Source: Bernardetiaceae bacterium (GTDB taxonomy: Bacteria > Bacteroidota > Bacteroidia > Cytophagales > Thermoflexibacteraceae). Taken from it: DNA of 64,000 bases. The position numbers and the translations under genes were made by a program. The DNA is taken from the NCBI GenBank assembly GCA_025056255.1, contig JANWVT010000001.1:62001-126000 (forward strand), in the 5' to 3' direction. Each line of letters starts with the position of its first letter. Position 1 is the first letter of the stretch. Below the pieces are notes generated by a model. The model saw only the letters and a list, made by a program, of their open reading frames with translations, was not told where the DNA came from and searched no databases. Positions 26,461 to 60,119 of this stretch are shown one piece after another.

Positions 26461-29400
26461 TTATCGGTACAACACTCGGCTCATACCCAAACTTAACATC
26501 GAATCAATCGCTAAGCCGAACATAATGCCAAACCCAAATCCGTAGTTAATCAGTTGCCTGAAATACCGGGCAGCAAAGCTGTAAAAAAGGTCTTCAATTT
26601 CTTTCGGATGCATTTCCGATATTTCGCGGACAACTACTTTGCCAATGTCCACTGCATTGACAATGGCAGGCAAATGTTGCTCTGCCGTGTGAAGAACAGC
26701 ATCAATCAGTGCGTTGGCAAGGCTTTGCAGCGTTTCAGGAACAAGGCTATGCGGCAATTTTGGTAACAATGTACTTAACAAACTTTCTACCAATTGGTGT
26801 ACTGCTTGTCGGCTTTCTTTGTTGGCAAACAACTGATGCAGCATGGCAAAGGTTTGAGCGGCAAGTTTTTCGGTAGGCAACACATCGCCCAACGTATTGC
26901 CTTTAAGTTGCTCTTGGAAGTTGTATAGGGCATTTTGCAGCCATTGGTGCGTAGCAGGTCGTGCAAAGTATTTTTGCAAGGTTGCTTCTATGCGTGTAGC
27001 AAGTTCTTCTTTGTTGAGCATTGTTGCAAGCATTGCGGGTGAAAGCGTCCCGTAGAGTCCTTTCGCCATTTCAAAGGCTGCCTGCATGGCTAAGGGCAGT
27101 AGTTCGGGCAGGGAACGCTGCAAAAGTTCGCGCAGTTCCTCCCAAGCTGTGCTAACAATGGGTTCGGTGCGCTGCCAGAGGCTCTCTGCATTGCTGATTT
27201 GCAATACGTTGGCAAAAGCCGCCACAGGCATTTTCACCAATTCATCTACGAGCAGGCTCAGCGCACGACTTGCTGCATCGTATAGTTCGGGTTTGGCAAG
27301 TAGCGTATCGGTGAGTTGTTTCAGGTACAGTTCATCTACGCGGACACCAATTGCCGAAAGCGGGGTTTCGCCCAGTTGTGCCGTCCATTCGCCAATGAGG
27401 TCTTTCAAACCTTTGGATTCACGCCTGAAAAATTCGGGAATGCCTTGCTCAGCCAGCTCTATGACGCTGTCTTTGATGGTGCTTTTATAGACAAACGCTC
27501 CCGCTTTGCTTTGTGCGTATGCTTGTTGATAAACTTTTTCGGCGAGCATTTCTTTGTTGTCTTGCAACCAACTAAGCCCTACGGCAATAAATCCGTCCAA
27601 TATGTTGTCCAAATTGTGGGTGATGACTGCCATCAGTTGCCCGTTGAACAAATCGCTGATTTTGCGCTGCGGGTTAAACTCCTGCGCAAGGCGATTTTCT
27701 ATGAGTTGGTACAGCAATTGGCGCAGCGATTCGCCTTTGAGTTGCTTTTCTAATGCCCGATTGAGTCGTGCTTTCAGTCGGTCTTGCTGCATCGTGCCGA
27801 CGTACTGCCCCAGCGGTGCTTCATTGAATCGCTGCCAAACTTGCTCCAATGGTGGCAACAGGTAGCGTTTCAAATCGGCAATGGTGAGCGAGCGTACCGC
27901 CGCCGTAAGTACAGGCAGCATGAGTTCCGTTCCTGTGGCAGCATATTTGCTCCACTCCTCGCCTAACCAATCCTTCAAGGCAGGGGTATTTTGCAGGTTT
28001 TGGATAACGACTTGTGTTAATTTTTCAGCCCAAATTTTCCTGCCCTCGGCATTGGTTAATTGTTCAGCGATTTTCTTGCGGATGCTTTCCCAAGGCAGTT
28101 TTTCCAATGGGAAAGTGGCTGCTTTTTCCGCTACTTGTGCCTTGATAGCGACTTGGTGCTTCGGTAACAATTGTGCCGCCCAATCGGTGAGCGCGGCGGC
28201 AATGGCTGCACGGTTATTTTGCAACCACTGTCCGGGAATCAGCAAGTCGGGCTGTGCGGCGTACTCCCGCGCCTGCCTGCGGATGAGCTCCTTTTTATCT
28301 GCAAAAGTTGCGGCGATATTTTGCGAATTGAGCAGCCCTCCGGCTACAAACTTGCCCATGTTTTCGGCAAAGCGTGCCTGATTTTTGGCAACTACGCCTG
28401 GGGTAAATGGCAATGCGCTACCTTTTTTCCATTCTATCGGGCGGTAAGGTCGAAAAATCATGCGCAGGGCAAGCCAATTAGTGCCGTAACCTGTGATGCC
28501 ATAAGCAGTGGCAGCCAGCGCCGTATCCTGCCACGATATAAAATCGTTGCCGTTGATAGGAGGCAGAAAAGCCAAAGCACTGCCTGCTATGCCACCCAAC
28601 AAAGCGCCAAGCAGTGTAATGGGTTTGAGTTCGCGCCCCATGAAGCGCTCTACCAAGTCCAGCAGTTTTTCATTGGGCATTTTTTGCAGGCTGTTGCGAA
28701 CAACTGCTTCTATGCGACCTGTAAGCAGGAACTCCAAGTTTTGCAGCAGCAGTTGTTGCAGTCGGGCAGGCAACGACAGCGACCACGACTGAAAGGCTTC
28801 ACGTGCAATGTGCCAAGGTTGCGTGCCCAAACGTTGCAGGCTCGTGCTGACATAGCCCGTAATTAGTCGTTCCGCTTGCTCGCTCATGATGAGTGCGGGC
28901 AATTCTTGCTGTATCATTTTTTGCAATACTGCCGCATTGGGCGCAAGTATGCCTTGCAGCAGCGCAGGGATTTTAGCATCTGTTGCTTGCAGAAACTTAT
29001 GAAAACGAGGTTCTGAAATCCATGTTCCCCAAGAGCAATGATAGGCACTCATCCATCTCTTGTAAGCGGCTTGCTCTAATTGCACACTTGCCGCAGGGGC
29101 ATACAGCCAGCGTTTTTTTGCTTGTTCCTGCCAGATGTAGCGCAAAGCCTGTTGCAGGATGCGCACAGTTTCTTCCTGCGAAATGAAATTGCCGAGCGGG
29201 CGCTCTGCCAGTGTTGAAAAGCGCAGTACCGAATCCGCAGGGGATTGCAGCAGCCCTGCAATGGCTTTTTGCAGCAAAGTTGCCAGTGGGTCGGTATTTT
29301 CCGCATCGCTGCCGATGGCTAACCGCAGGCGGTTTTCGTTTTGGCGCAATTGCTGGACAATCTGCCCAATGGTATTTTCTTTGAGAAAGCGAATGATTTG

Positions 29401-30573
29401 CTCGGTGAGCATTTTTGCCGTTTCCGCCGGGTTTTGACTGTGCTTGTCCAAAATATCGGTAATGCGGCGCACCACATCGGCATATTGGCTGATGCTGCCT
29501 ACAAACAGTTGCAGGATAATGTCCTGAAACTTCCACTTGATGTTTCTGCGGAACGTACTGTCTATGATGGCTTCCAACTGATGGCGGCGCGATTGCAGCC
29601 ATTCAATCAGTTTTTGCAGCACCAGCGGCAGATAGCCGCGCAAAAAAGCATCAAATCGCTCCGCCAGATTTTCGTTGAGCAGCGAGAAGACGGTCGTTTT
29701 TTCCTGCCCGAGTACTTCCCAGAAAAAGCGGGCAGAACCTTCCAACACCTGCCTGCCTTCGGGTGCTTCTACCACAGCAAGCAGCCTTTCCGCCAGTGTA
29801 TTGACCAAGGCTTTGCCGTTTTCTTCGCCGAGCCATGCGCCGACGGTTTGCGTCCGCAAACGCGCTGCCACAAGGTTCAGCCATTCGGGATTGAGCAACA
29901 GCAATTCGGCAGTTTCAAAAAAAGTTTCCGTGCTTGCGCGCCCCGCCACAGTGTACAGCTGTCGCAAGGGCTGTGTCAAGTGCCTGCCAAGTGCTTGATA
30001 GTCTGTTGGCGAAAGTATATCGGCAAATGTAAGTTGTTGAAAATCAGAATAAGAAATCGTTCCGGCAAGCAATGGGTGTGTTTGTTGTACCTGCTGCAAG
30101 AGTTGTATCAGGCACTTTTCCAAAGCGGTCAGCACATTGGGGGTAAGCAGTAGCCCAATGTCTGCACTGCCAATCATTTGCTCAAACGATTGTTTGACAG
30201 AGGCATCGTGCAGTAGCTGCCTTGCACTGTCGGTTATGCGTTGAACAGAGGCATCAAATCCCGCCAAAAAGCCGATGGGTTCATTTTCAGGCAGATAGAG
30301 CCAGAGGCTGCGTTCTGCCAAATCCTGCACAGCATTGGCAAGGCTATCTTGAAAAGCGCCGGGATTTTCTGCCAGTTCGCGACTCAACGTATGATGATTG
30401 ATGATGTCGCGCTCTACCAAGCGGCTGATGTTGTCAATAAACTCATCGCGAGTGCGCAGCACAATGCCTCCCAGCCCAAAGCGTTTGCGAAACAACATTT
30501 GGATGGCTAAGTCGTTGGTGGCATAGCCGACATAAGCGCCACTAATAACTTTGGCAAGGAGGGTGGTTAGCAT
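26461..30573 (-). CDS. Giant DUF445-family membrane protein with two N-terminal modules
   Basis: A 1370 aa protein, far longer than the roughly 400 aa typical of DUF445 (YheB-like). The N-terminal motif of the family appears twice: KVISGAYVGYATNDLAIQML (about 7-26) and, near 690-735, GYGTNWLALRMIFRPYRPIEW followed by LPFTPGVVAKNQARFAENMG. The family's C-terminal signature is present once (MHPKEIEDLFYSFAARYFRQ, then a glycine-rich last helix). Between them lie long helical repeats with many LA/LL pairs. Function unknown; helical domains anchored at both ends suggest a membrane scaffold. GC is clearly higher than in the neighbours, and long antisense shadow ORFs occur. ATG at 30573 is preferred over a TTG at 30579. 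It follows pyrB by 31 bases. Confidence 0.88.
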   Translation of the reverse strand: MLTTLLAKVISGAYVGYATNDLAIQMLFRKRFGLGGIVLRTRDEFIDNISRLVERDIINHHTLSRELAENPGAFQDSLANAVQDLAERSLWLYLPENEPIGFLAGFDASVQRITDSARQLLHDASVKQSFEQMIGSADIGLLLTPNVLTALEKCLIQLLQQVQQTHPLLAGTISYSDFQQLTFADILSPTDYQALGRHLTQPLRQLYTVAGRASTETFFETAELLLLNPEWLNLVAARLRTQTVGAWLGEENGKALVNTLAERLLAVVEAPEGRQVLEGSARFFWEVLGQEKTTVFSLLNENLAERFDAFLRGYLPLVLQKLIEWLQSRRHQLEAIIDSTFRRNIKWKFQDIILQLFVGSISQYADVVRRITDILDKHSQNPAETAKMLTEQIIRFLKENTIGQIVQQLRQNENRLRLAIGSDAENTDPLATLLQKAIAGLLQSPADSVLRFSTLAERPLGNFISQEETVRILQQALRYIWQEQAKKRWLYAPAASVQLEQAAYKRWMSAYHCSWGTWISEPRFHKFLQATDAKIPALLQGILAPNAAVLQKMIQQELPALIMSEQAERLITGYVSTSLQRLGTQPWHIAREAFQSWSLSLPARLQQLLLQNLEFLLTGRIEAVVRNSLQKMPNEKLLDLVERFMGRELKPITLLGALLGGIAGSALAFLPPINGNDFISWQDTALAATAYGITGYGTNWLALRMIFRPYRPIEWKKGSALPFTPGVVAKNQARFAENMGKFVAGGLLNSQNIAATFADKKELIRRQAREYAAQPDLLIPGQWLQNNRAAIAAALTDWAAQLLPKHQVAIKAQVAEKAATFPLEKLPWESIRKKIAEQLTNAEGRKIWAEKLTQVVIQNLQNTPALKDWLGEEWSKYAATGTELMLPVLTAAVRSLTIADLKRYLLPPLEQVWQRFNEAPLGQYVGTMQQDRLKARLNRALEKQLKGESLRQLLYQLIENRLAQEFNPQRKISDLFNGQLMAVITHNLDNILDGFIAVGLSWLQDNKEMLAEKVYQQAYAQSKAGAFVYKSTIKDSVIELAEQGIPEFFRRESKGLKDLIGEWTAQLGETPLSAIGVRVDELYLKQLTDTLLAKPELYDAASRALSLLVDELVKMPVAAFANVLQISNAESLWQRTEPIVSTAWEELRELLQRSLPELLPLAMQAAFEMAKGLYGTLSPAMLATMLNKEELATRIEATLQKYFARPATHQWLQNALYNFQEQLKGNTLGDVLPTEKLAAQTFAMLHQLFANKESRQAVHQLVESLLSTLLPKLPHSLVPETLQSLANALIDAVLHTAEQHLPAIVNAVDIGKVVVREISEMHPKEIEDLFYSFAARYFRQLINYGFGFGIMFGLAIDSMLSLGMSRVLYR

Positions 30574-30604
30574 TCCCAAAAATTACGCAAAATTCGACAA
30601 TCGC

Positions 30605-33271: not shown

Positions 33272-33484
33272 ATGTTGAGGCGTGCACTCATTTTTTTACT
33301 TCGGACTTACCAAGTTGCCATTAGCCCGCTCTATCCGGCTGCTTGCCGCTTTGTACCCACTTGTTCCGAATACATGATACAGGCAGTAGATAAGCACGGT
33401 ATTGTAAAAGGACTTTGGTTAGGATGCAAGCGCATTAGCAAATGCCATCCTTGGGGAGGTAGCGGATACGACCCCGTTCCGTAA
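33272..33484 (+). CDS. yidD: YidD membrane protein insertion efficiency factor
   Basis: A 70 aa protein with the YidD signature: an amphipathic N-terminal helix ([18 protein letters not shown]), then [19 protein letters not shown] and the C-terminal [13 protein letters not shown]. YidD helps YidC insert membrane proteins. It is transcribed divergently from sucD and lies 111 bases before the Cas6-family gene, outside its usual rnpA-yidC context. Confidence 0.95.
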
Positions 33485-33517: not shown

Positions 33518-33525
33518 TAATTTTG
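33518..33525 (+). promoter_or_regulatory. -7 element of the Cas6-family gene
   Basis: TAATTTTG matches TAnnTTTG exactly and ends 70 bases before the GTG start. The only TTG upstream is 14 bases away, too close for a standard -33. It suggests the Cas6-family gene has its own promoter. Confidence 0.42.
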
Positions 33526-33595: not shown

Positions 33596-34429
33596 GTGTT
33601 AAGGACAAGAATTATTTTTAAACTCCGTAACAAAGGAGGAATGTTGCCTTTTCATCATCAACATCTGCTTGCTGCTATGATTCAAGATTTAACATCTGGT
33701 AGCCAAGCAGACAATATATTACCTTGCGAGTTTTATAATTTTTCAGGTATTAAAGGACAAACCAAAGTAAGCCGCAATGGCTTACAATATTTTTCAAGTC
33801 GTGTTACGCTGGTTTTTGCTTGTATCGACAAGCAATTTACAGATTATTTCCTACAACGCTTATTTTGCAATCAGTTTATTGAGGTAGGAGGTTTGATTCT
33901 TTCGCCTGAAATGGTAGAACGAGAAGAAGCCCCCGAGTTTAGCGAGCAAATGAAATACATTTGCCTCTCTCCGTTGGTGTGTACTATTCATTCGGACAGT
34001 CAAATGACTGCAAAGGATTTTATCATGCCCGACACCGACCAATTTTCCGACTTGTTGTACGAATCAACTATGAATCGTATTGAGCGCTCGGGCTTGTTCT
34101 CTCCGCAAGAAATAGCCAATTTTTTTAAATTTCAAATAGTGCCAGACCATTACTACCTATCTAAGATTGCAAAGGAATCTAAGAAATTTGCCCGAATTTA
34201 CTCTATTCCTAATCATCAAGGCAAAGTGGAAGTAAGAGGGTACACAATGCCTTTCTCACTCTACGCCGACCCCAAAGTACAGGAATTCGTATTTTTTTGC
34301 GGATTGGGCGAAGCTACTACTGCTGGTTATGGTATGTTAGACTTAGCCAATACAGACCCTACCCTACGCAGCGCACCTTATGAACTGAACCAAAAGTTGC
34401 CGACTAAAATTGTACCTTCCTATCGGTAG
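33596..34429 (+). CDS. cas6: Orphan Cas6-family CRISPR RNA endoribonuclease
   Basis: A 277 aa RAMP-fold protein. The diagnostic glycine-rich loop GLGEATTAGYG lies at 236-246 near the C-terminus, preceded by EVRGYTMPFSLYADPKVQEF; the N-terminal strand and LPFHHQHLLAAMI (His20, His21, His23) could supply the catalytic histidine. The middle part (ILSPEMVEREEAPE, YICLSPLV) also fits Cas6. Cas6 cuts CRISPR precursor RNA within each repeat. No array and no other cas gene is in the window. Start: an in-frame TGA at 33590-33592 leaves GTG at 33596 as the start that keeps the first strand; the first ATG (33641) would remove it. A lipoprotein gene follows after 7 bases. Confidence 0.8.
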   Translation: MLRTRIIFKLRNKGGMLPFHHQHLLAAMIQDLTSGSQADNILPCEFYNFSGIKGQTKVSRNGLQYFSSRVTLVFACIDKQFTDYFLQRLFCNQFIEVGGLILSPEMVEREEAPEFSEQMKYICLSPLVCTIHSDSQMTAKDFIMPDTDQFSDLLYESTMNRIERSGLFSPQEIANFFKFQIVPDHYYLSKIAKESKKFARIYSIPNHQGKVEVRGYTMPFSLYADPKVQEFVFFCGLGEATTAGYGMLDLANTDPTLRSAPYELNQKLPTKIVPSYR

Positions 34430-34436
34430 AAAATAT

Positions 34437-35354
34437 ATGCAGGCGGCATTTTTAGCCGCCTCGTTTTTTTTGTTGCACAGTTGCCAGCCCCAGCAGGAAC
34501 GATTACACAAGCTCATGCAGGCAGGAACGGCTACTATTGCAGGTTTTGATACGCTCCAACTCGCAGACTCTTTGTTTCCCGTTGTAACTGTTTCGGTAGG
34601 TACACAGCTGCAACAATGGCTGATTGATACTGCTCTGCCCTGTCTGTCGGCAAATGTATCGGGCGATGCCGTTCTTGTTCCGCTTATCAATGCAGCAGGG
34701 GATACACTCGCCACAGCCTTTGGTATGATTCCTCTGCTACGCCTCGGCGGTAGCACCTTTCAGGAAGTAGGCAGCGGACTGCTGACCGATAGCTTATGGA
34801 CTGTATTACAACAGAAAAACATTCAGGGAATCATTGGCGCTAACCTGATGCAGCATAGCACCTGGCATTTCGACTTTGAAAGGAAGTATGTCATTATAGC
34901 TCCTTGGCCTGAACCCTTTATAGGTTTGCCGCAAACAATAGCCATTCCCTTTAACCGCAGTATATACCGAAGCCCTAAGTGGCAGGTGCAGTTCAATCGC
35001 TTTCCGTACCAGTTAGTGATGCAAGTTAGCACTGGATACGCTGGCGGCATTTTGTTAGACCAAGAGTTTAGCAACAACTACAAGTCGTTTATGTATGACC
35101 GCACGCTGCAAACACACTCTTTTCCCGACTTGGTTCACGGCATTGCATCGGGGGAGGGGTTGCAGATGGACTCGCTTCGGATAGAAAGGCAACATACGTT
35201 TGACAACCTGCCGGTAGTGCGTTCACAAAGCAGTTATGCTTTACTGGGGCTGGCATTTTTGCGCCGCTATCGCCTTACAATTGACTGGCGACAACGGATG
35301 ATTTGGTTACATCCTGCTCAGCGAGGCTCTATCAAATCCCACAGGTTGCCGTAG
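34437..35354 (+). CDS. Lipoprotein resembling a degenerate two-lobe aspartyl protease
   Basis: A 305 aa predicted lipoprotein (FFLLHSC, Cys near 16). Two lobes look like pepsin/retropepsin halves: FPVVTVSVGTQLQQWLIDTA in lobe 1 and LVMQVSTGYAGGILLD in lobe 2, with ending SYALLGLAFLRRYRLTIDW typical of bacterial retropepsin-like proteins. The catalytic DTG is changed to DTA in lobe 1 and STG in lobe 2, so activity is doubtful. It begins 7 bases after the Cas6-family stop, implying co-transcription, and its last 37 bases overlap the convergent VOC gene. Confidence 0.65.
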   Translation: MQAAFLAASFFLLHSCQPQQERLHKLMQAGTATIAGFDTLQLADSLFPVVTVSVGTQLQQWLIDTALPCLSANVSGDAVLVPLINAAGDTLATAFGMIPLLRLGGSTFQEVGSGLLTDSLWTVLQQKNIQGIIGANLMQHSTWHFDFERKYVIIAPWPEPFIGLPQTIAIPFNRSIYRSPKWQVQFNRFPYQLVMQVSTGYAGGILLDQEFSNNYKSFMYDRTLQTHSFPDLVHGIASGEGLQMDSLRIERQHTFDNLPVVRSQSSYALLGLAFLRRYRLTIDWRQRMIWLHPAQRGSIKSHRLP

Positions 35355-42252: not shown

Positions 42253-42266
42253 CTTTGTTGCATCTA

Positions 42267-43265
42267 ATGTTGCCAATGCTACCTCGTATTACTGTTATCA
42301 CCCCTTCGTTTCAGCAAGCAACTTTTTTGGAGCAGACTATTCGGTCTGTTGTTGCACAACGGTATCCTAATTTAGAATTTTTTGTGATTGATGGCGGTAG
42401 CACCGATGGCTCAGTAGATATTATCCGCCACTACGAGCACCACATTACCCATTGGATAAGTGAAAAAGACAAAGGACAAAGCGATGCCATCAACAAAGGG
42501 CTGCTATGGGCAACAGGCGACATTATCAGTTGGTTAAACAGCGACGATGTGCTACTGCCCGGCGCCCTACAAACAGTAGCAGACCTGTTTGAAAAGCACC
42601 CACACGCATGGGTCATTCACGGCAAAACACAACTGTTCGGAAAAGGAATCACCTCCAAAGAAAAAGGGGCTCCTGTTCCTTGTGCTGAGGCACTCTATTT
42701 GGGAAAGCTGCCATTCCCACAACCCTCAGCATTTTTTCGCAAAGATGCCTTGCAAGCCGTAGGACACTTAGACCTTTCGCTGCACTATGGAATGGACTAC
42801 GACCTATTTTTGCGAATGTTCTTGCAAAACGGATGCTTCGTAGCTACCCAAGCAGTCCTTTCGGGATATAGACTACACCAGCAAGCCAAAGGAGTGGCTA
42901 TGCAAGCCTGCTTCGCTGATGATTATGCCCGCATTTTTGCTCGATTGCTCAATAGTACCAACGCCAGCAAGGAATTGTTGCACTTAGCAACCTCTGCCAG
43001 CCTTCCGATTTTGGAAGAGAAAAAGACCTATCCTATTCGGCGAGCACTAACAACCGAAGTGTTGTGGCAGGCTCTATTAGAGAATGCGCTCGCTCGTTTA
43101 ACTTTCTTATATGAAGCCCTTGCCCTCTCTCAAGCCCGACCGTTAGCCGCATTCTTACTCAACCATGCAACCGATTTTTGCCGTGCGCATCCTGAAATTA
43201 GGCAGATTGCTATACGCAGCCGATTGCCTGCAAGCGTAATCCGCCTATTGCGAACGCTGGTATAA
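42267..43265 (+). CDS. Family 2 glycosyltransferase (soluble)
   Basis: A 332 aa GT-A enzyme: ITVITPSFQQATFLEQTIRS, FVIDGGSTDGS and the metal-binding WLNSDDVLLPGAL, then a GMDYDLFLRM acceptor-side motif. No membrane helix is predicted. It probably adds a sugar to a surface polysaccharide. The start is ambiguous among in-frame ATGs at 42267 and 42276; the frame extends to a TTG at 42255, 2 bases after trpF. Close spacing suggests co-transcription with trpF, without an obvious link. Confidence 0.85.
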   Translation: MLPMLPRITVITPSFQQATFLEQTIRSVVAQRYPNLEFFVIDGGSTDGSVDIIRHYEHHITHWISEKDKGQSDAINKGLLWATGDIISWLNSDDVLLPGALQTVADLFEKHPHAWVIHGKTQLFGKGITSKEKGAPVPCAEALYLGKLPFPQPSAFFRKDALQAVGHLDLSLHYGMDYDLFLRMFLQNGCFVATQAVLSGYRLHQQAKGVAMQACFADDYARIFARLLNSTNASKELLHLATSASLPILEEKKTYPIRRALTTEVLWQALLENALARLTFLYEALALSQARPLAAFLLNHATDFCRAHPEIRQIAIRSRLPASVIRLLRTLV

Positions 43266-43341
43266 ATGGCGTATTTTCAGTTTTACACACGCTTTGCACA
43301 AATTTTGTCGTTATAGTTTGTAAACTTATCATTTCAGACCA

Positions 43342-45255
43342 ATGCTAACACGAATTATTGTATGTGTAATTGCCTTTTTGCTGCCTATGTACATACAAGC
43401 GCAGTTGAGTACCAACAACAAAAAGGCAGAAAAATTATATGAAGACTCCAAAGAATATTTACGACAGCGCAACTTCGAACGCTGTATCGAAAAACTGCGC
43501 AAAGCCATTGAAATAGACCCTAACTTCTTAGAGGCACACTATGCCTTAGCCAATGCGCTCAATACGATGCGCCGCACCGAAGAAGCAGAAGTACACTATC
43601 GCAAGTGCTTGGAAATCAGTCCAGAAGATAAAAAGTTAGCACCTGTTTACTATCACATTGGAGTGATTGACTTTACCAAAGGCAACTATGCCAGTGCCCA
43701 AGTAAAATTGGAGAAATTCCTTGCTATAGGAGTAGGTAATAACAACCAAATACAAGACGCTCGCCGCAAAATAGCCTCTTGCAAATATGCCATTGAAGGC
43801 ATGAAAAAGCCAGTAGAGTTCAAACCCCTGCCTGTACCTGCTCCCATTAACCACCTGCCCTTGCAGTATTTTCCCGTTCTTTCTGCCGACCGGCAGCAGC
43901 TGATTTATACAGCTCGCGAAGGCACCAGTGCCTTACACGATGAAAATATCTACATCAGCTACTTTCAAGGAGAACAGTGGACGCAACCCAAAATAATAGA
44001 AGAACTTAGAACGCCTTTCAACGAAGGCACTTGTACTATCTCCGCCGACGGACAAACCATGATTTTTACTATTTGTGAAAACAAAGACAAAATTATATAC
44101 GGTAGTTGCGACTTGTTCATTACTCATCGCATAGGCGAGCGTTGGTCAGAGCCGCAAAACATGGGACCTGCAGTAAATTCTCGGCACTGGGATACCCAAC
44201 CTTCGCTCTCTGCCGACGGACGCACCCTGTATTTTGTCTCTGACCGCCCAGGTGGCATTGGTGGACAAGACATTTGGGTAACCTACCTCCACGAAAGTGG
44301 CAGATGGACAGAGGCAGTCAATTTGGGAACACCAATCAATACCCGTGGCGACGAAGTAGCTCCCTTTATCCACGTAAACGGAAAAACTTTATTTTTTGCC
44401 TCCGACGGGCACCTTGGCTATGGCGGATTCGACCTTTTCAAAGCAGAACAAACAGACAAAGGGTGGAGCAAGCCCGCTAATTTAGGCTACCCCATAAATG
44501 ACCATCGCAACCAAGTCGGATTATTTATTACCGCAGACAGCAAACAAGGATACTACTCCCATGAAGAAAATATCGGCAATCAGCTGATTTCCAGTCGCAT
44601 TTACATGTTCGACCTTCCCGAGGAAGTCCGCCCTACTATTACCTCTAATTACGTTAAAGGAGTGGTGCGCGACGCCATCACCAAAAAACCTCTCGCCGCA
44701 CGCATAGAGCTCATCTTGCTAGGAAAAGACAGCGTGCAGCAGCAAGTAACTTCTGATGCCGTCAACGGAAAATACCTTATTGTGCTAAACAAAGGAGCAG
44801 AGTACGCCCTCTACGTTAGCCGAGAGGGTTACTTGTTTAAAAGCCTCACATTCAACTACATAGCAGAAGAAGCCAAAGATGTAGAAATACACATCGAACT
44901 TGAACCTATTAGTAAAGGTGCAAGTATTGTACTGAACAACATTTTCTTTGAAACTGCTAAGTGGGACTTACAACCTAAGTCTGTAACTGAATTGCGCAAA
45001 CTACTCAAGCTACTACAAGAAAATCCACAGCTCAAAGTAGAAATCAGCGGTCATACCGACGATATTGGCTCCGATGGAGCGAATATGGAGCTCTCTCGCA
45101 AACGCGCACAAGCAGTAGTCAACTATCTCACCCAGAACGGCATAGACCCTGCTAGGCTGATTGCCAAAGGTTATGGCGAAACCATGCCACAAGTTCCCAA
45201 TAACAGCGACGCCAACCGTGCTAAGAACCGCCGCATTGAGTTTAAGTTGTTGTAA
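43342..45255 (+). CDS. OmpA-family outer-membrane protein with TPR, PD40 and carboxypeptidase-like domains
   Basis: A 637 aa exported protein. Signal peptide (1-20, ending IQAQ), TPRs (about 25-140), WD40-like PD40 repeats (about 180-400; SADGRTLYFVSDRPGGIGGQ is one), a CarboxypepD_reg-like beta domain (about 440-520) and a C-terminal OmpA peptidoglycan-binding domain (about 530-637) with ISGHTDDIGSDGANMELSRK and NRRIEFKLL. This layout is characteristic of Bacteroidota cell-envelope proteins, some linked to gliding or type IX secretion. It starts at ATG. Confidence 0.93.
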   Translation: MLTRIIVCVIAFLLPMYIQAQLSTNNKKAEKLYEDSKEYLRQRNFERCIEKLRKAIEIDPNFLEAHYALANALNTMRRTEEAEVHYRKCLEISPEDKKLAPVYYHIGVIDFTKGNYASAQVKLEKFLAIGVGNNNQIQDARRKIASCKYAIEGMKKPVEFKPLPVPAPINHLPLQYFPVLSADRQQLIYTAREGTSALHDENIYISYFQGEQWTQPKIIEELRTPFNEGTCTISADGQTMIFTICENKDKIIYGSCDLFITHRIGERWSEPQNMGPAVNSRHWDTQPSLSADGRTLYFVSDRPGGIGGQDIWVTYLHESGRWTEAVNLGTPINTRGDEVAPFIHVNGKTLFFASDGHLGYGGFDLFKAEQTDKGWSKPANLGYPINDHRNQVGLFITADSKQGYYSHEENIGNQLISSRIYMFDLPEEVRPTITSNYVKGVVRDAITKKPLAARIELILLGKDSVQQQVTSDAVNGKYLIVLNKGAEYALYVSREGYLFKSLTFNYIAEEAKDVEIHIELEPISKGASIVLNNIFFETAKWDLQPKSVTELRKLLKLLQENPQLKVEISGHTDDIGSDGANMELSRKRAQAVVNYLTQNGIDPARLIAKGYGETMPQVPNNSDANRAKNRRIEFKLL

Positions 45256-59481: not shown

Positions 59482-60119
59482 AAGCATATTGACGTTTTAC
59501 AAACTACATTGCTGCTTAGACAAGAGGCAGTATTGAGTAGCAAAAAACAACCTTGCTATATTGTAGCACCTGTTATTACTTGTAATAGGGTGGCTGGGTG
59601 AGTACACCAACAAAGGCGAGCTTGCCTTTGTAAATGTACATTTGTCAAAATTGATTCTTACAAAAAACTAAACAACCACTAAAATCCAAGCCCACCGCAT
59701 TTACAATACGATATGGTGCAATGTGGCATGGGCAATGGATAACCAAACATTTACAATTGCAAAAGCAAGAAGGGAAGCCATTTTATACCTTCCAAGAAAA
59801 TATGCCCTGCCGTGCCGATGGATGATTTGCAAAAACAGAGGCAACAAGCAGTTTTTCGCAAGACGATAAAAGAAAACGTCTATTTGCAAAGATGATAGAC
59901 GACGGCGGCGTGCACAACGGCAGCGTGCAACGGCGGCGTGCAACGGCAGCGTGCAACGGCAGCATCAAAATTAATGATGTTAGAAAAGGAACCTTTAGCA
60001 CTACTTGGGTATAAAGCAGTGTAAGACAACACGCCGAAGGTCTATAAACAACAGGCAGCGGATACCCAAAAGCTAACGAGTAGGTAAAACACACATCTTT
60101 TAAAACTTAGCACAGTATT
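59482..60119. other. Long intergenic region with repeat and hairpin
   Basis: About 638 bases with no supported gene. CAAAGGC/GCCTTTG at 59611-59630 is a perfect 7-bp hairpin, followed by the 12-base palindrome AAATGTACATTT (59632-59643). The GC-rich tandem repeat at 59902-59966 is listed separately. Two short minus-strand ORFs here are low-complexity and not called. Confidence 0.55.
59902..59966. repeat. GC-rich 13-base tandem repeat
   Basis: Four copies and part of a fifth of ACGGC(G/A)GCGTGCA start at 59902, 59917, 59930, 59943 and 59956. Two extra bases follow the first copy; the sixth base reads G,A,G,A,A. It stands out in AT-rich surroundings and lies 155 bases before the YbjN-like gene. 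Confidence 0.85.

Follow-up and report, generated by a model that had tools for sequence, protein, structure and literature searches.

The 64,000-nucleotide stretch of Bernardetiaceae DNA analysed here (the window) holds a Cas6-family gene that stands by itself, which raises the question of what a lone Cas6 is kept for. The initial annotation offered two answers: the protein may process CRISPR arrays located elsewhere, or it may have been taken over for another RNA-cutting task in this lineage. We found that arrays elsewhere do exist, and that the takeover is nevertheless favoured, because the gene descends along genome families, is under purifying selection in genomes without a sign of class-1 CRISPR, and has lost the usual histidine. 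We consider that the window gene is probably a domesticated Cas6, vertically inherited, present in single copy and no longer mainly serving CRISPR.

We confirmed the open reading frame of 277 aa with a GTG start on the plus strand at 33596-34429. Profile searches bore out its membership of the Cas6 family: the protein matched Pfam PF01881 (Cas_Cas6_C) with an E-value of 7e-18 (66.1 bits, cut-off 23), PADLOC Cas6b (PDLC01782) with an E-value of 1.5e-28, and NCBIfam TIGR01877 with 61.9 bits, just over the cut-off of 58.65. The glycine-rich loop GLGEATTAGYG was found at residues 236-246 (34301..34333, plus strand) and the clustered N-terminal histidines at H20, H21 and H23, both as first described. 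Within the order, 92 of the 148 genomes searched carry an ortholog of the protein, and G236, G238, G244 and G246 of the loop are invariant in all 92. Residues 18-22, PFHHQ (33647..33661, plus strand), are also well kept, with Q22 in 92/92, H21 in 90/92 and a histidine at position 20 or 21 in every ortholog, and the clade carries the signature SGIKGQT at residues 50-56 (33743..33763, plus strand), in which S50, K53 and G54 are invariant. An AlphaFold2 model, built on an alignment of the window protein and one named relative only, had a pLDDT of 38.5, too low to serve as a view of the two tandem RAMP folds expected of a Cas6 or of the placing of its conserved residues.

The upstream neighbour is yidD (33272..33484, plus strand), as the initial annotation had it (Pfam PF01809, YidD, 106 bits). 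The downstream open reading frame (34437..35354, plus strand), which had been called a lipoprotein, starts 7 nt past the stop codon of the Cas6-family gene and had no match in a Pfam search. The "-7 element" assigned to the gene, TANNTTTG at 33518-33525, is a sequence that turns up about as often as expected by chance (15 matches vs 12.4 expected in 12.8 kb). The reported absence of a CRISPR array from the window was confirmed with Tandem Repeats Finder and a repeat search, which gave only a 13-bp tandem repeat of about 4.6 copies at 59902-59963. No other cas gene was found in the window with the Cas1, RAMP, Cas5, Cas6 and Cas6b families, again in agreement with the first reading, and searches of the 371-kb contig that holds the window (C19) with these families matched only the window gene. 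An array pattern search of the source genome gave matches on contigs C16 and C38 only and none on C19; the case named at the outset as contrary to an isolated gene, in which a cas operon with its array would lie shortly past the window edge, was thus looked for on C19 and not found. Elsewhere in the window, at 26461-30579 on the minus strand, lies a 1372-aa protein with four DUF445 stretches, which is longer than what we take to be usual for the DUF445 family.

The isolation of the gene is, however, local only, since the same genome carries CRISPR-Cas parts on other contigs. The draft assembly of the source genome comprises 107 contigs (3.39 Mb), and these parts lie on contigs C16, C30, C32, C35, C38 and C85. 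On contig C38, a cas2 cut by the contig start is followed by a leader-like stretch and 47 exact copies of the core repeat, and C16 starts with 27 more repeats of the same kind (GTTTTAATCGTACCATTCAGGAATTGAAAT); the two are perhaps one broken array. At the start of contig C30 are five units of another repeat, next to cas1 and cas2, which brings the repeat kinds in this genome to at least two. The genome has arrays whose repeats end in ATTGAAA. On C32, a Cas6 of the Cas6b_N/C kind (PADLOC Cas6, 142 bits) stands in front of cas10-csm2; C85 holds cmr5 and cmr6; and C35 ends inside another Cas6b (157.7 bits) with the motif FLHQHGY, whose neighbours fall past the contig end. The genome has, in this way, two Cas6 genes besides the window gene, one of them (C32) clearly in a cas locus. 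The idea that the window gene is the only Cas6 of its genome had rested on a single-sequence search with the window protein, which gave one match, and it was dropped when PF01881, PADLOC and PF17262 revealed the two others. The claim that the gene is isolated from CRISPR stands for contig C19 and fails genome-wide, where arrays, cas1 and cas2, Csm and Cmr genes and two Cas6 genes are present. Because this genome has two further Cas6 genes, service to distant arrays is not needed to explain the window gene.

The order was placed as Cytophagales by two named relatives, a Bernardetiaceae MAG and Bernardetia sp. Wsw4-3y2; a contig scan with the window protein as single query gave one relative, in the Bernardetiaceae MAG. 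Orthologs were called at E <= 1e-40, one copy in each of the 92 genomes with the source genome counted, and are 37-85% identical to the window protein (self left out). Weaker matches were 18-29% identical, except for a 50-residue fragment with 56% identity at a contig end in G012, which is probably the same gene twice. In a phylum sample of 395 genomes, an ortholog-level match was found in nine, all in the same order, and the best non-ortholog match reached 76.8 bits vs 148 for the weakest ortholog. The distribution follows genome families: six have the gene in all sampled members (56/56), seven more have it in at least one member, and nine have it in none (0/45). A quick tree of the 92 solitary proteins together with 21 further Cas6 sequences from the order, which carries a long-branch warning among the latter, grouped the solitary proteins in a single clade (SH-aLRT 97). 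Genome families mapped on the Cas6 tree with 13 label changes, the smallest possible number, vs a mean of 83 after shuffling; families f1, f8 and f14 each need more than one change. The gene is therefore inherited vertically along genome families, like a core gene. All three sampled members of f14 without the solitary gene (G056, G107 and G132) have class-1 signs and other Cas6 genes, and this family is a possible place to study loss of the gene.

The genes around the solitary Cas6 were compared across the 92 loci. The pairing with yidD, whose conservation the initial annotation had proposed to check, is kept in five loci, all in the family of the window. The wider conserved neighbour is ychF, which lies directly upstream on the same strand within 600 bp in 34/92 loci from nine families, at a gap of 43-390 nt; the window's own family is without the ychF neighbourhood. 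Other recurrent neighbours are DUF3276 (30 loci), a convergent T9SS plug gene (29), ABC-F (26), DUF58 (23) and a gene with DPBB and SPOR domains that we named RlpA-like (16). In one family the neighbours are asparagine synthase and an M50 peptidase, and in another a methylmalonyl-CoA mutase family gene. YchF, DUF3276 and ABC-F proteins have roles in translation or in nucleic-acid functions, and their presence nearby hints weakly at such a function for the solitary protein; the hint is weak because of the 43-390-nt gap to ychF and because the neighbourhood is missing in other families. The ychF-cas6 intergenic regions, read by eye, had no obvious shared element. No match to Cas1, RAMP, Cas5, Cas6 or Cas6b was found within 6 kb of the gene in the 92 loci when coordinates were compared by eye. 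The nearest, in the same kind of comparison, was a type I/III-like cas1 in G047 (contig C1, 13982-14872), 8.8 kb from the solitary gene, and the next lay more than 90 kb away.

We compared the solitary clade with the other Cas6 proteins of the order at the active site. The catalytic triad of PfuCas6 is given as Tyr31, His46 and Lys52 in PMC3652601. An LH motif (FLHxxGY-like) stands at the corresponding place in 15 of the other 21 Cas6 proteins extracted from the order (14 by pattern, and G133b with FLHGTAY); four have a histidine in [LV]H[KR]W[LM]G, and two (G037b and G058b) have neither. From these 21 we chose 12 CRISPR-linked proteins for alignment, by the kind of histidine and by a distance of at most about 10 kb from cas1 or an array. 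Their relationship to the solitary clade is clear (hhalign of 27 orthologs against the 12: probability 99.7, E 4.5e-26). A histidine, H44, is invariant in the 12, and we infer from the alignment that it corresponds to His46 of PfuCas6. Opposite this segment, the profile-profile alignment puts a 13-column gap in the solitary clade, between residues 43 and 44 of the window protein; the motif is missing from residues 31-46 (33686..33733, plus strand), where it would be expected. Within residues 24-49 of the solitary clade, no column has a histidine in more than nine of the 92 proteins, and the position opposite the conserved tyrosine of the 12 is variable. These alignments indicate that the solitary clade has no conserved catalytic histidine at the usual place, of either the PfuCas6 His46 type or the alpha-1 type. 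The loss looks derived, because LHxxG[YFW] is present in all 12 homologues retrieved from beyond the order, a set that is not exactly the twelve best matches. The solitary clade also has a lysine-bearing segment at residues 188-198 (34157..34189, plus strand), with K197 in 92/92, K196 in 90/92 and R200 (92/92) next to it, opposite which the 12 CRISPR-linked proteins have an 11-column gap. Profiles searched against the PDB ranked differently: the solitary family matched 3UFC best (57.0 bits) with 5YI6 a close second (55.1), and the CRISPR-linked profile matched 5YI6 (124 bits) clearly over 3UFC (86.8).

A missing histidine alone does not prove that the protein is inactive, because SsoCas6 (Sso1437) cuts RNA without it; according to PMC3652601, SsoCas6 is histidine-free yet active and uses a network of basic residues (K28, K25, K51, R231 and R269). 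The solitary protein might likewise be an active host RNase whose site has moved or is built on lysines and whose substrate is a single cellular transcript or a small number of them, which would be a sharper form of domestication. R3, R5, K53, K197 and R200 are conserved in 92/92 orthologs each and R214 in 91/92, and from the alignment K53, K197, R200, R214 and H20/H21 could form such a site. Conserved basic residues suit RNA binding equally well, however, and we regard active cleavage as a tentative reading, possible but rather doubtful.

We then turn to genomes with and without class-1 CRISPR. Any of the following was taken as a class-1 sign: a cas1 of type I/III-like score (200 bits or more), RAMP, Cas5, an array or another Cas6. 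An array was defined as at least five pattern matches on one strand (ATTGAAA-ended units), so that genomes with one to four matches, such as G111 with four, were not counted; G032 (75-bp spacing, with the look of a protein repeat) and G044 (five matches) were left out of the arrays. Matches to cas1 of 20-119 bits, judged from their scores to be mostly type II-like, were not taken as a class-1 sign. The negatives fell from 54 to 51 when three genomes were excluded: G037 and G058, which have a second Cas6, and G029, which has a partial Cas6b match. By these rules no class-1 sign was found in 51/92 ortholog-bearing genomes (50/92 if G044 is counted as having an array), as judged from a small set of cas families and a single repeat-end pattern, in assemblies some of which are fragmented. 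Forty-five of the 51, counted by eye, are at least 90% complete, G015 and G083 are single contigs, and 30 had no cas1 of any kind; the CRISPR-repeat-like pattern gave one match in the 51, in G121. Neither this pattern nor the ychF-cas6 intergenic regions revealed an RNA target for the solitary protein, which counts against domestication. Neither of the second Cas6 genes, in G058 (contig C1, ~2165553) and G037 (contig C1, ~1385443), encodes the usual histidine motifs, and the two genomes gave no further class-1 sign.

Across the 148 genomes, with phylogeny ignored, any class-1 sign was commoner with the gene (38/92 vs 13/56, p 0.03), as were type I/III cas1 (30/92 vs 7/56, p 0.006) and RAMP (21/92 vs 5/56, p 0.04), and arrays gave p 0.33. 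G094, whose control counts were noisy, entered the any-sign count and was kept out of the single-marker counts. The any-sign association was gone without three small-genome families (38/92 vs 13/37, p 0.56), a comparison made for any sign and not for the single markers. Despite the positive statistical association, the solitary gene is not confined to genomes with class-1 CRISPR.

The dN/dS ratio was 0.009-0.091 in 14/22 ortholog pairs, rough values in that several of these pairs had dS >1.5, and dS was saturated in the remaining eight. Pairs of class-1-negative genomes gave 0.014 (G026/G083), 0.032 (G096/G044), 0.036 (G108/G144), 0.031 (G032/G061) and 0.025 (G031/G086); both genomes of G026/G083, G096/G044 and G032/G061 are without a cas1 match of any kind. 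Purifying selection acts on the gene, and does so even where both genomes of a pair show no class-1 sign.

The association with class-1 markers would fit a Cas6 that stays in the genome and processes crRNA in trans for class-1 systems (above all type III) as these come and go. According to PMC12669027, type III systems mostly use Cas6 given in trans, and the source genome has both ATTGAAA-ended arrays and type III genes. Type I/III cas1 is commoner where the gene is, and no other intact Cas6 was found in 6/38 class-1 ortholog genomes (G012, G041, G069, G095, G115 and G143). One of these, G095, has an array of about 31 units (contig C166, ~42262-43992) and only the solitary Cas6, with no cas1, RAMP, Cas5 or other Cas6 found; this is possibly an orphan array. 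However, the gene is strongly constrained in genomes without a class-1 sign, its usual histidine is lost, and another Cas6 is present in 32/38 ortholog-bearing genomes with a class-1 sign, the source genome among them, as it is in 12/13 class-1 genomes without the ortholog. We therefore think it unlikely that processing in trans is what the gene is kept for.

Descent from Cas6, and coexistence with another Cas6 in 32 genomes, could also suit a factor that acts by itself in defence or regulation and binds CRISPR RNA or RNA of foreign origin; it might, for example, adjust the linked Cas6 as a decoy. Genes caught in an arms race are not expected to follow genome families with so low a dN/dS, and mobile elements are nearly devoid of the gene: at E 1e-5 the window protein matched 0/50,697 phage records and 1/72,556 plasmid records, and no relative was found in the viral contigs searched. 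Such a role is very improbable. The one plasmid match is a 602-kb replicon of Bernardetia sp. Wsw4-3y2 (NZ_CP147018.1), which is called a plasmid, carries purQ and rimM near the gene and may be a chromid; its record labels the protein "CRISPR-associated endoribonuclease Cas6", and no cas gene is annotated within 8 kb of it. That the gene is a remnant, now in decay, of a CRISPR locus that has been lost, as its standing alone might suggest, is hardly credible, given frames of 260-334 aa that are open in 92/92 loci, dN/dS of 0.009-0.091, and matches to both PF01881 and TIGR01877 at E <= 0.001 in 27/27 aligned orthologs.

Returning to domestication, we lean towards the view that much of a bacterial order turned a Cas6 into a core RNA-binding protein outside CRISPR, with the histidine segment lost and a lysine-bearing segment gained. 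On balance, we would include in this exaptation inheritance with the genome and, in many families, a place beside ychF. A Cas6 would have come to serve a cellular RNA in the ancestor of these families, and its descendant, now without the classical active site, would have been retained as a core gene. As a member of the Cas6 family the protein is expected to bind RNA, and it may still hold a specific RNA as Cas6 does, in the groove between two RAMP folds and with the glycine-rich loop. This RNA would be cellular, in place of a CRISPR repeat, because constraint persists without class-1 CRISPR. The main role is predicted to be that of an RNA-binding or chaperone protein; cleavage, if any, would be slow and without the classical histidine, with H20/H21, K53 and K197/R200 as candidate residues.

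If this is true, a Cas protein has left immunity for a cellular RNA role, and the order offers an RNA-binding Cas6 of natural origin that does without the classical active site. There is also a practical side. Automatic annotation calls the solitary proteins "CRISPR-associated endoribonuclease Cas6", and genome surveys may therefore score CRISPR genes in genomes that yielded no such system. No account of the solitary Cas6 of this order was found in open PMC papers, a scope outside which most subscription papers and preprints fall.

Among known systems, the solitary clade resembles the Cas6/Cas6b endoribonucleases (PF01881, TIGR01877, PDLC01782) in profile match, glycine-rich loop and length, and differs from them in standing without a cas match within 6 kb in 92 loci, in lacking the histidine-bearing segment, in having a segment (residues 188-198) without counterpart, and in a distribution that follows genome families. 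PH0350 (3QJJ/3QJP), which we take to be a non-catalytic archaeal Cas6 paralogue, and PfuCas6nc (3UFC) offer another comparison. The latter, called non-catalytic in PMC3652601, is the best PDB match of the solitary family, with a small lead over 5YI6; these archaeal paralogues stand beside an active Cas6, whereas the solitary clade persists in genomes that show no class-1 sign. With SsoCas6, the solitary clade appears from the alignment to share the lack of a histidine at the usual site, and SsoCas6, unlike what we propose here, processes crRNA. Finally, the isolated or orphan cas loci surveyed in PMC5294841 are loci with at least three cas genes. The solitary Cas6 is like them in being a cas gene away from any array, and unlike them in being a single gene conserved across an order.
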